From Metallumcola ferriviriculae (lineage in GTDB: Bacteria; Bacillota; JADQBR01): DNA of 64,000 nucleotides. Below are positions 12,144-58,224 of this stretch, in pieces. The notes under the pieces were generated by a model. The model did no database searches and was not told the DNA's origin. It was given only the letters and a program-made list of their open reading frames with translations. Where the stretch lies: positions 286,501 to 350,500 of the forward strand of contig NZ_CP121694.1 in assembly GCF_035573695.1 (NCBI RefSeq), read 5' to 3'. A program made the translations under genes and the position numbers. Position 1 is the stretch's first letter; each line of letters begins with the position of its first letter.

Positions 12144-12240
<97 letters not shown>

Positions 12241-12513: not shown

Positions 12514-13779
12514 TTAGCCAATTTTATCTATACCCATATAAGGCTGTAACGCCTCAGGTACTGATACTGTTCCATCTTCCTGTTGATAATTCTCTACAAT
12601 AGCAGCGAGCGTTCTGCCGACAGCTAAACCAGATCCGTTTAAAGTGTGTATATATTGCGACTTACCCTTTGCCGGTCTGTATTTTATATCTGCTCGCCTG
12701 GCTTGAAAGTCTTCAAAATTACTGCAAGAGGATATCTCCCGATAAGTATCATAACTAGGTAGCCATACTTCTATGTCATAAGTTTTTGCAGCTGAAAAAC
12801 CCAGGTCTCCGCCACAAAGATTTACCACTCGATAAGGTAAATTCAGCTTTTGTAAAATTGTTTCTGCATTATTTAACAGCCTTTCCAATTCTTCATAAGA
12901 ATTTTCAGGTTTGCTAAACTTGACTAATTCTACTTTATTAAACTGATGTTGTCTAATTAATCCCCTGGTATCTCTTCCGTGAGCACCAGCTTCCGCCCGA
13001 AAACAACCACTATATGCCGTATGATAAATGGGCAGTTTTTCCTCATCAATTATTTCTTCTCGATAAAGATTAGTCACTGGGACTTCAGCAGTAGGAATTA
13101 AGTACTGCTCTTTATTTTCCAATTTGAACATATCTTCCGCAAATTTTGGCAGTTGTCCCGTTCCCACCATGGAGTCACGATTTACAATAAACGGTGGGAA
13201 AATTTCAATATAACCATGTTCTTTAGTATGGGTATCCAACATTAGATTAATCAACGCTCTCTCTAATCTCGCACCCATTCCTTTCAAAAAGGTAAACCTG
13301 GCTCCGGAAACTTTAGTTCCTCTCTCAAAATCAATAATATCTAAAGCTTCCCCTATATCCCAATGAGCCTTGGGTATAAATGTAAATTCCCTTATTTTTC
13401 CCCAGACACGTATTTCTTCATTATCATCTTCACTGACACCCGACGGAACCGACTGATGGGGAATATTAGGTATCGATAGCAATTCGTTTTGCAGTTTTTC
13501 CTCGGTCTCTTTAACAGCTTCGTCAATTGCCTTGATGCGTTCTGACACCTGCCGCATTTGCACAATCATTTCTTCTGCGTCGTCCCCGGCTTTTTTTCTT
13601 CGCCCAATCTCCTCTGATACCTTATTTCTATTGTGTTTTAACTCTTCCACCTCGCCGAGCAATGACCGTCTTTTTTCATCTAACAGCAAAAACTTATCTA
13701 GTGATAACTTTGCTCCTCTTTTACTTAATCCCGCATTGACCGCATCAGGATTAGAACGTACAAATTTTAAATCCAACAT
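12514..13779 (-). CDS. serS: Seryl-tRNA synthetase
   Basis: 421-residue class II synthetase, usual length. An N-terminal coiled-coil arm (about residues 25-105) binds the long variable arm of tRNA-Ser. Motif 2 ([23 protein letters not shown]) and motif 3 ([19 protein letters not shown]) are present. It charges the four tRNA-Ser just downstream and also tRNA-Sec at 57.9 kb, so it feeds the selenocysteine pathway. A T-box leader precedes it. Confidence 0.97.
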
Positions 13780-13803: not shown

Positions 13804-14030
13804 AAACCCCCATCCCTGTAAAGGGACGAGAGTTTTCCCGCGTTGCCACCCTGTTTAACCACAGATAATACTGTAGTTCACTTAAACATCATAACGGCAA
13901 ATTACCGGAACGCCTACTAAATTCGGCAGTTCACTCCGGAGGGGATTCGACCAGCAAAGAATATCGTTTCACACCAGCCAACGATTCTCTGAAATTCCAG
14001 CATAGCCTACTATTCTCCATCATCACTTTA
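13804..14030 (-). promoter_or_regulatory. T-box leader of serS
   Basis: Reads on the minus strand. The T-box AGGGTGGCAACGCGGG (complement at about 13837-13852) precedes a terminator with a fully pairable 14-bp stem (13804-13817 with 13822-13835). Stem I has the AGTA and GAA loop-E elements and the candidate specifier UCC (Ser). The base after TGG is C, which would pair with the G discriminator of every tRNA-Ser in this window. Both signals agree on uncharged tRNA-Ser(GGA). Confidence 0.92.
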
Positions 14031-14085
14031 GTTTGTAAAATTGTTACAATGATTATATAACAGATAACCTTCCTAAGCAAATCCT

Positions 14086-15663
14086 TTACAAACGAACATA
14101 TTTAACGTCTAACACTCCGTCTATTTTTGCAAGTTCTTTTATTGTCTTAACAGGCACCTCGGAATCTACGTTTAAAAACATTACGGCCCTGCCGCCAATA
14201 TTTTTTCTACCAACCTGCATACCGGCAATATTTATATCATGCTGACCGATAAGATGCCCCACCGGGCCAATAATTTTGGGTTTATCAATATGAGGAACGA
14301 CCAGCATATGGCCCTGGGGCACAGCATCAACTGTAAATCCGTCTATGCGTACAATCCGGGCGTCGTGTTTACCAAAAAGTGACCCGCTGATTGTTTTGGT
14401 ACATTTCTCAGTCTCTACACTGACAGTAATCAGATTTGCATAATCATCCAATTCAACAGATTTATTTTCCGATACGGAAATTCCTCTGCTCTGCGCTATC
14501 AGCGGTGCATTCACATAATTAACAGCGTCCTTTAAAATTGGCCGCAATAAGCCTTTTAAAAATGTGTTGGTTAACGATGTCACATTATATTGGGCAATAT
14601 CACCATTATACTTAATCTCCACTTTTTTGATATGGCTATCTACTAATTGGGAAATAAGTTTTCCCAACTTTTCTACTAGCTCACGATAAGGATTTAAAAT
14701 ATGCTGTAACTCTGGTTTAATAGACGGTATGTTAACCGCATTCTTTACTAATTCCCCTTTTAATGCCTGAATTATTTCCTCCACTACATCAATTGCTACA
14801 TTAAGTTGTGCTTCTTCTGTGGACGCACCCAAATGAGGCGTTACTACTACATTTTCTAAATCAAATAAAGGGCTTTTGGTTTCTGGTTCGTTTTCAAAAA
14901 CATCTACCGCTGCTCCGGCTATTTTTCCTTCCTTTAGCGCCTCGTACAATGCCTGTTCGTCAATAATACCACCCCGGGCGACATTAACAATTTTAACCCC
15001 AGGCTTCATTTTTTTAATCTGTTCCCCACCAATCAAATGATAAGTTTCTTCGGTCAGAGGAAGATGAATGGTTAGAAAATCAGCATTTTCAATCACACCA
15101 TTAAAATCAGATAGTTCCACACCCATTTGTTTTGCCCGCTCCTCGGAAATATATGGGTCATACGCCAGCACATTCATTTCAAAGGCCCGGGCCCTACTAG
15201 CCACGCCGCTGCCGATTTTTCCTAAACCGATGATTCCCAATACCTTATTTCTAAGCTCAACGCCGGTAAACTTCTTGCGTTCCCAGAGGCCTTGTTTGAG
15301 CAATTCATTAGCTTTGGGTATGTTCCGAGCAAAGGCCAACATCATCGCTAGAGTATGTTCTGTAGCGGCTATCGTATTCCCTTCCGGCGCATTAACCACC
15401 ACAATTCCCTTTTCCGTAGCTGCATCTACATCTATGTTATCAATTCCCACACCCGCTCTACCAATAATTTTTAAGTTACGCGCTTTTTCAATAATATTAC
15501 GAGTCACCTTTGTTTGACTACGTACAATCATGGCATGATATTCATCAATGAAGCCGCATATTTCTTCCTCTGATTTCTTTGTTCTTACATCAACGTGGAA
15601 ACCCGCCTCTTCTAGCATAGCCACACCTTTGTCTGCAATCGGATCACTAATCAATACTCTCAT
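14086..15663 (-). CDS. serA: D-3-phosphoglycerate dehydrogenase
   Basis: 525 residues, the long form. The NAD-binding motif GLGKIGSGVASRA starts near residue 146, the catalytic Arg lies in NVARGGIIDE near 230 and the His in VVTPHLGAS near 280. An allosteric-substrate-binding domain follows, then an ACT domain (about 452-525). It catalyses the first step of serine synthesis from glycolysis. The serine transaminase gene that often accompanies it is absent. A 185-bp gap separates it from its T-box. Confidence 0.96.
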   Translation of the reverse strand: MRVLISDPIADKGVAMLEEAGFHVDVRTKKSEEEICGFIDEYHAMIVRSQTKVTRNIIEKARNLKIIGRAGVGIDNIDVDAATEKGIVVVNAPEGNTIAATEHTLAMMLAFARNIPKANELLKQGLWERKKFTGVELRNKVLGIIGLGKIGSGVASRARAFEMNVLAYDPYISEERAKQMGVELSDFNGVIENADFLTIHLPLTEETYHLIGGEQIKKMKPGVKIVNVARGGIIDEQALYEALKEGKIAGAAVDVFENEPETKSPLFDLENVVVTPHLGASTEEAQLNVAIDVVEEIIQALKGELVKNAVNIPSIKPELQHILNPYRELVEKLGKLISQLVDSHIKKVEIKYNGDIAQYNVTSLTNTFLKGLLRPILKDAVNYVNAPLIAQSRGISVSENKSVELDDYANLITVSVETEKCTKTISGSLFGKHDARIVRIDGFTVDAVPQGHMLVVPHIDKPKIIGPVGHLIGQHDINIAGMQVGRKNIGGRAVMFLNVDSEVPVKTIKELAKIDGVLDVKYVRL

Positions 15664-15850
15664 ACTAAACTCTCCTCTCTTAAATACCTTTTATACTGCG
15701 ACGACATCATCTTAACAAAATCTATCCCTTTAATTTAAAATTCCTTACTTTAACAGTTCTAAAGAACCACTGCGTCATTTATTTCCATAGGTTGTACATA
15801 TCCCAGATGGCCTATACGGGACAGTAATCACAGGTACCTTTATAACTAAA

Positions 15851-16135
15851 AAACTCTCACCCCTTCCGAAATGGAGGGACGAGAGTTTCCCGCGGTACCA
15901 CCCTTATTGGCCAAATAAAATTCGACCCGCTCGTACGCATGTTAACGGCCATGAACCGGACAGGTTTAATAGCAGAAGCTATTTTTATTGCCTGTCACTC
16001 CGAGGTGCCTTTCATTGCCTTAACGGGTTGGTTCACAGCCAACACCAACTCTCTGAGAACCGTTGGGACAATTACTTCTCCTCGTCATCGTATTTGTGCT
16101 TATTTAATTAGAAAGGCTTGCCAACTTGTTGGCTT
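15851..16135 (-). promoter_or_regulatory. T-box leader upstream of serA
   Basis: Minus strand. The T-box AAGGGTGGTACCGCGGG (complement about 15889-15905) and a long terminator (15851-15888) are unmistakable, as is a stem I with AGTA and GAA elements. The specifier loop reads GAA AGGCA before the closing helix and contains no serine codon; AGG, GGC and GCA are candidates. The base after TGG is T, which would pair with an A discriminator, unlike tRNA-Ser here. Its amino-acid specificity is therefore open. From 15664 to 15850 I see no gene. Confidence 0.88.
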
Positions 16136-36552: not shown

Positions 36553-37695
36553 ATGATATATTTTGATAATGCTGCTAGTTCGTGGCCTAAACCCCCGCAA
36601 GTAATCGATGCAGTGCGGGAAGCACTGGAGGATAGCGGTGCCAATCCAGGACGATCGGGGCATAGGTTGGCGCGCAAGGCCGCGGGTCATGTATACGAGG
36701 CGCGCAAAAGGTTGGCACGGTTCATCGGCGCCGAAAAAGAAGAACGAGTAGTATTCACCGCTAATGCAACAGAGGCGTTAAACACTGCGATAAATGGTGT
36801 TCTTAAACAGGGGGACCATGTGGTCACTACTGTTTTGGAGCATAATTCCATGTTGAGGCCGTTGTATTTACTAAAAAAGAAAGGCGTTGATGTGAGCATA
36901 GTGTCATGTGACGCATCCGGAAAAATCCGACCGGACCAAATCGAGCACCATATCAAGCTTAATACCAAACTCGTGGCGTTAACCCATGCATCTAATGTAA
37001 CCGGAACCATACAACCAATAGCTGCCATTGCTGAAATTGCTAGACGCAGAGGAGTTTTGTTGCTAGTAGATGCCGCGCAGACCGCCGGTGCGTATCCACT
37101 GGATGTAAGTGCTCTTGGCATAGATATGCTAGCTATGACGGGACATAAAGCTTTTTCTGGACCCCAGGGCACAGGGGCATTGTATGTCTCTCCCGGTACG
37201 GCTTTGTTACCTTTGAAGGTAGGCGGTACTGGAAGTTTTTCGGAATTAGAACAACAACCCGAAGGATTTCCTGATTACCTGGAAAGCGGCACACTTAACG
37301 GACCGGGCTTAGCAGGACTGGCAGCAGCGCTGGAATTTTTAGAAGAGACCGGACTAAACGAGATCATGGAACATGAACAGCTGCTGTTAAGCAGGTTGGT
37401 GACTATGTTAAGGAATATTGAAGGGGTCATCGTTTATGGACATCAGGCAGGGGTATCCCATGTGCCTGTAGTCTCATTTAACATTCATAATTGCGATCCT
37501 GCGGAAGTCAGCTTTGCCCTAGATCGGATTTACGATATGGCTGTAAGACCGGGACTCCATTGTGCGCCTCTAGCACATAAGGCATTGGCTACATACCCGC
37601 AAGGAACTGTTAGGGCAAGTCTATCATATTTTAATACACTCGTAGAGGTAGACAATTTTATTGAAGCTATTGAACAAATAACTCATGATCTATAA
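36553..37695 (+). CDS. Cysteine desulfurase family protein
   Basis: 380-residue PLP enzyme of aminotransferase class V. The PLP lysine is in MTGHKAFSGPQGTGALYV near residue 196, a conserved His in LEHNSMLRP near 97, and the probable catalytic Cys in RPGLHCAPLAHKALATYPQG near 340. It releases sulfur (or selenium) from cysteine (or selenocysteine). It lies outside any suf or isc operon. Its presence in a selenocysteine-using genome makes a selenium-delivery role possible, but only as inference. Confidence 0.88.
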   Translation: MIYFDNAASSWPKPPQVIDAVREALEDSGANPGRSGHRLARKAAGHVYEARKRLARFIGAEKEERVVFTANATEALNTAINGVLKQGDHVVTTVLEHNSMLRPLYLLKKKGVDVSIVSCDASGKIRPDQIEHHIKLNTKLVALTHASNVTGTIQPIAAIAEIARRRGVLLLVDAAQTAGAYPLDVSALGIDMLAMTGHKAFSGPQGTGALYVSPGTALLPLKVGGTGSFSELEQQPEGFPDYLESGTLNGPGLAGLAAALEFLEETGLNEIMEHEQLLLSRLVTMLRNIEGVIVYGHQAGVSHVPVVSFNIHNCDPAEVSFALDRIYDMAVRPGLHCAPLAHKALATYPQGTVRASLSYFNTLVEVDNFIEAIEQITHDL

Positions 37696-57890: not shown

Positions 57891-57984
57891 GGGAGTGGAT
57901 TCGCTCTGGTGTGCGGCCTGGATTTCAAATCCAGTGGGACGCAGCGATCCTGCGTTCGGTGGGTTCGATTCCCATGCACTCCCG
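57891..57984 (+). tRNA. selC: tRNA-Sec (TCA)
   Basis: 94 nt plus encoded CCA (57985-57987). Anticodon TCA in ggatTTCAaatcc, long acceptor/T stack with gggagtg and cactccc ends, and a long variable arm (about 57935-57958). Unlike other tRNAs it has an extended acceptor helix. It decodes UGA with SelA and SelB encoded 5-8 kb upstream. Confidence 0.96.
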
Positions 57985-58224
57985 CCATATATATCATGAT
58001 AACTTTATTAATTTGACCGGAAGCATAAGTTTGCCAGATGGCAAGCTTATGCTTTTAATTATTTTTGGCAACTAAAATATTCATAAGGTACCATCTCTCC
58101 GTTAAATGCTACTGCAAAGTTGGTAGTATTAATATTATTTAATACATCAAAATTAAATAATTCCAAATAATACTTGCAATTTGCAAATATACGTGATATA
58201 AACTAGCTAAAGGTGGTATCTAGA

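Follow-up and report, generated by a model that had tools for sequence, protein, structure and literature searches.

Results

A glycine codon and a serine-type bulge in one T-box leader

Which transfer RNA (tRNA) is sensed by the T-box riboswitch leader that precedes serA in Metallumcola ferriviriculae? We addressed this question in a window of 64,000 nucleotides (assembly GCF_035573695.1, contig NZ_CP121694.1, positions 286,501 to 350,500), where an earlier reading of the letters, hereafter the original prediction, had judged this leader not to look serine-specific. The leader is a genuine tRNA-sensing T-box with a terminator hairpin. It lies at 15872..16097 on the minus strand of the window, ahead of the serA open reading frame (phosphoglycerate dehydrogenase, 14086..15663, minus; TIGR01327, 716.8 bits). 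Its match to the covariance model RF00230 is full (model 1-219, 133.9 bits, E 1.4e-29), passing the gathering score of 93 and ranking first among the 16 T-box matches in the genome. An intrinsic terminator hairpin with a U run (15846..15892, minus; minimum free energy -23.6 kcal/mol, z -4.12) overlaps and competes with the antiterminator. The T-box sequence, AGGGUGGUACCGCG (15891..15904, minus), contains UGGU at 15900-15897 with U as the variable base at 15897, as had been reported.

The original prediction left the register of the specifier loop free and weighed AGG, GCA and GGC side by side. We fixed the register with the Rfam model and by calibrating it against six T-boxes from this genome that have a known amino acid: pheS (GAA-G-UUC-G), thrS (GAA-A-ACC-A), metG (AAA-A-AUG-G), cysE (GAA-G-UGC-A), ileS (CAA-U-AUC-A) and alaS (GAC-A-GCC-G). 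In all six the codon occupies bases 2 to 4 from the 3' end of the specifier bulge, and in 3' strands of the serA length one base lies between GAA and the codon, and the next base after the codon is a purine. TBDB gives this register first priority (PMC7778990). The 3' strand of the serA bulge reads GAA-A-GGC-A (16013-16006, minus), and with the register so fixed the specifier is GGC (16007..16009, minus), not AGG or GCA. The covariance-model alignment likewise places GGC there, bearing out that the leader lacks a serine codon at the specifier and that a glycine codon fits the loop spacing.

Arginine or alanine specificity had been proposed because the variable U can pair with A73, which tRNA-Arg(CCT) does carry, as does tRNA-Ala. 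Both frames are out of register, however, and in orthologous leaders the base before the specifier is A, G or C (GAGGGGCA, GGGGGGCA, GCCAGGCA) while GGC-A or AGC-A is kept, which disfavours an AGG specifier. GCA is conserved, but the UGGC bulge of 14 of 18 orthologs with GGC would leave A73 of its tRNA unpaired. We find either specificity scarcely credible. The overlapping frames AGG and GCA also fail to make this a two-codon T-box, given the unconserved base.

The serS leader provides a local reference. This T-box (13819..14032, minus; 132.8 bits) has specifier UCC and bulge UGGC and stands directly before an open reading frame named seryl-tRNA synthetase by sequence reading (serS, 12514..13779, minus). 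It fits tRNA-Ser, as originally stated: all four tRNA-Ser found among the whole-genome tRNA loci (ARAGORN) have G73. tRNA-Gly(GCC, UCC, CCC) have U73, again as expected, in a list that is incomplete in that tRNA-Ile(GAU) and tRNA-Ala(UGC) were not returned. The tRNAs obtained from 20 genomes, with some isoacceptors unrecovered per genome, show the same: every tRNA-Gly has U73 and every tRNA-Ser G73, and no tRNA-Gly with G73 or A73 was seen among them.

Set against these tRNAs, the serA leader bears a divided signature. As a serine T-box it lacks the codon, although GGC could pair with tRNA-Ser(GCU) through a G-U pair; its variable base meets G73 as a U-G wobble, which is C-G in the 14 UGGC orthologs; and it precedes a serine biosynthesis gene, its orthologs standing before aminotransferase-serA. 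As a glycine T-box it has the right codon, but UGGU does not pair with U73 of tRNA-Gly. The claim that U after UGG calls for an A discriminator did not hold. UGGU coexists with UCC specifiers before serA in three relatives (L139, L061, L288) and before serS in another (L140), and the serA T-box of Paenibacillus polymyxa, whose AGC specifier was verified by mutation, has UGGU too (PMC8002221). TBDB allows wobble at the variable base, where it is present in 46% of Trp T-boxes (PMC7778990). UGGU is therefore compatible with G73 of tRNA-Ser.

The mixed address recurs in serine operons

We searched 398 genomes of the phylum for GGC combined with UGGC or UGGU and obtained nine matches. In six of these GGC truly is the specifier, and each such leader precedes either a class V aminotransferase gene with serA behind it or serA by itself; the matches before tyrS, pheS and valS (L168, L174, L175) arose by chance, with the motif away from the specifier. 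A second pattern, built on the conserved middle of the leader and independent of codon and variable base, returned 21 matches plus four in one family. This census is confined to leaders that possess the conserved middle, and two genomes (G004 and G033) were added to the tally. It holds 18 GGC leaders from four families, before aminotransferase-serA or serA alone (14 with UGGC, 4 with UGGU, none with UGGA), three AGC leaders, all with UGGC, and several UCC leaders. Comparison with the serA leaders of relatives, which the original prediction had put forward as a check, gave a split answer: GGC recurs widely, and other relatives do have a serine codon. The mixed address of GGC and a serine-type bulge is a conserved oddity of serine operons in four families. 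Such a class may have been described earlier in the T-box literature.

Glycyl-tRNA synthetase leaders supply the contrast. A glyQS T-box with the searched core was present in 9 of 20 genomes checked, and its bulge is UGGA in every case. Five of the nine also have a GGC serA leader (M. ferriviriculae, G002, G004, G111 and G076). UGGA in 9/9 glyQS leaders versus 0/18 GGC serA leaders gives a Fisher p of about 2e-7, which ignores relatedness and serves as a guide only. Separately, the simple pattern used found no T-box core upstream of glyQS in one family (f14; L265-L269, L272-L275), and G111 has a second, divergent glyQ-like gene (L277, 43% identity).

A tree of 27 SerA proteins shows how the codon has moved. 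GGC predominates in two clades; AGC (G131) and UCC (G001) are nested within GGC groups, and AGC in G035 sits beside two GGC sisters. The close relatives G131 and G015 differ as AGC versus GGC, and the ortholog pair L286/L295 shows this exchange as a single-base difference. Across these exchanges the bulge remains UGGC or UGGU. Because GGC swaps only with serine codons, without the shift to UGGA expected of a glycine address, the pattern points to tRNA-Ser as a probable ligand throughout.

The operon lost its first gene

The original prediction had also suggested that the leader belonged to a gene deleted from the 185-bp gap between leader and serA. A deletion did occur. Within the gap, 13 codons of an aminotransferase gene survive, RIGHLGYVQPMEI (15780..15818, minus), and their 13 residues are identical to a near-C-terminal part of the aminotransferase of L057, with synonymous codon differences (41-bp local alignment, score 47 versus <=31 in 500 shuffles). 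L057 is the closest relative with the ancestral order; its SerA is 82% identical, and an aminotransferase of ~390 residues lies between leader and serA. We found no homolog of the lost aminotransferase in the M. ferriviriculae genome, and no remnant in the corresponding gap of G001 (score 22, within shuffle range). A classical phosphoserine transaminase gene, serC, lies elsewhere in the genome (L305, TIGR01364, 485 bits), which is possibly why the loss was tolerated. In the window itself, a gene with a class V aminotransferase fold lies at 36556-37659 (+); it matches TIGR01977, a cysteine desulfurase family protein, with similarity to SclA (selenocysteine lyase) below cut-off.

Because the lost gene was itself part of this serine operon, its deletion alone implies no foreign specificity, and that part of the suggestion falls away. 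One might still suppose that the leader survives in this lineage as a remnant that is decaying or has no specificity, given that the aminotransferase is gone from the genome and serC is available elsewhere. The leader nevertheless outscores every other T-box of the genome and retains a strong terminator hairpin, and serA, an original gene of the operon, still stands behind it. We consider a remnant very unlikely.

Serine, glycine or both

Our preferred reading, to which we give about an even chance, is that the leader is a transcription-terminating T-box of the serine regulon whose effector would be tRNA-Ser(GCU), accepted through a first-position G-U pair. The candidate effector is predicted in the window at 12146..12240 (minus; G73). 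The leader would descend from an aminotransferase-serA operon that in this lineage has lost its first gene. Uncharged tRNA-Ser(GCU) would read 5'-GGC-3' with its anticodon 3'-UCG-5', forming a G-U pair at the first position and two G-C pairs. Its GCCA end would pair with UGGU (UGGC in most orthologs) and so stabilise the antiterminator. Serine shortage would then lead to antitermination and transcription of serA. We infer both the identity of the binding tRNA and antitermination itself.

We compared the candidate pairings using nearest-neighbour energies of isolated duplexes (ViennaRNA), which ignore the T-box scaffold and tRNA modifications. At the specifier, GGC:GCU and AGC:GCU both come to -0.9 kcal/mol and GGC:GCC to -2.6 kcal/mol. 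The cognate specifier pairs of pheS, tyrS, ileS and metG, at +1.1 to +1.4 kcal/mol, are weaker than GGC:GCU, and on these modelled values it is not implausible for tRNA-Ser(GCU) to read GGC. The acceptor-end values are -4.2 kcal/mol for UGGC:GCCA, -2.8 for UGGU:GCCA, -2.7 for UGGA:UCCA and -0.8 for three pairs only. For the window leader, specifier and acceptor terms are -0.9 and -2.8 for serine and -2.6 and -0.8 for glycine, so that the totals are close.

Several points weigh against serine alone. tRNA-Gly(GCC) outpairs tRNA-Ser(GCU) at the specifier by 1.7 kcal/mol, and TBDB reports a strict Watson-Crick preference in specifier-anticodon pairing (PMC7778990). GGC is old and outnumbers AGC 18 to 3, which a merely tolerated wobble leaves unexplained. 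The leaders are, moreover, phylogenetically clustered, and their counts are not independent.

A further alternative would make the leader a glycine T-box with tRNA-Gly(GCC) as its effector and the U73 mismatch tolerated. Such a leader would have full Watson-Crick pairing in the calibrated register, in keeping with the TBDB preference, and the lost aminotransferase scores best among NCBIfam models against BhcA, an aspartate-glyoxylate aminotransferase, albeit far below cut-off. Yet A at the variable base, present in all nine glyQS leaders, occurs in none of the 18 GGC leaders, and in orthologous leaders with serine codons both the downstream genes and the kind of bulge are unchanged. Response to glycine alone strikes us as improbable, and with it the original suggestion that serA simply answers to another amino acid.

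Glycine in addition to serine is a more tenable form of that suggestion, one that we put forward tentatively and hold to be somewhat unlikely. The leader would answer uncharged tRNA-Ser(GCU), with an imperfect specifier and a good acceptor pairing, and putatively tRNA-Gly(GCC), with a perfect specifier and three of four acceptor pairs. The SerA pathway supplies serine and, via serine hydroxymethyltransferase, glycine; a dual sensor would explain why GGC is kept with a serine-type bulge in two clades, and the near-equal summed energies on the window leader agree with it. A T-box binding two tRNAs via overlapping codons offers a precedent (Saad 2013, as related in PMC4052509). Against this, U73 is mismatched with C or U in 18/18 GGC leaders, the AGC and UCC orthologs manage without glycine pairing, and charged tRNA-Gly might block the site instead.

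We can accordingly only float, as a possibility with the odds against it, a chimeric-address class with a glycine specifier and a serine acceptor bulge, in which one riboswitch might integrate the charging of tRNA-Ser(GCU) and tRNA-Gly(GCC), and with them both amino acids that the SerA pathway supplies. T-box specificity is usually read from the specifier codon; that rule would misannotate the class as glycine-responsive, and gene context would misannotate it as serine-responsive. Having evolved repeatedly, the class is a natural experiment on whether a first-position G-U pair or the sensing of two tRNAs operates outside the ribosome, and orthologs with a one-base difference, such as L286/L295, make the question directly testable.

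Other T-box leaders and neighbouring features

Elsewhere in the genome, the T-box terminators of pheS (L003) and metG (L007) are both followed by the palindromic repeat TATAGGAAATTATGGGTTGTGGATAATTTCCTATA. What looks like a diverged copy comes after cysE (L008), and a search of the window allowing up to 3 mismatches found none. L013 and L014, leaders of genes for a DAHP synthase and a phenylacetate-CoA-ligase-like protein, each contain two T-box cores in succession; these look like tandem antiterminators under a Phe specifier (GAA-G-UUC). A weak partial match (L016, genome positions 3202212-3202338, 29.2 bits) is possibly a decayed leader. The window also carries a selenocysteine tRNA gene at 57891-57987 (+).

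Comparison with known T-boxes

The closest counterpart is the serine T-box of P. polymyxa WLY78 serA, which has in common with the window leader its position before serA, a UGGU bulge, a specifier at the same position and, as predicted for the window leader, transcription antitermination; there the codon is AGC, with serine response and codon verified by mutation, whereas here it is GGC. The glyQS-type glycine T-box, found in M. ferriviriculae (L015) and its relatives, has the GGC specifier in common with the window leader, but its UGGA pairs with U73 and it precedes glycyl-tRNA synthetase, whereas the window leader has UGGU and precedes a serine gene. With the two-codon T-box of Clostridium acetobutylicum gatCAB, as described in PMC4052509, the window leader may share the ability of a single specifier loop to recognise two tRNAs; it differs in having one codon together with a bulge that would favour a different tRNA.
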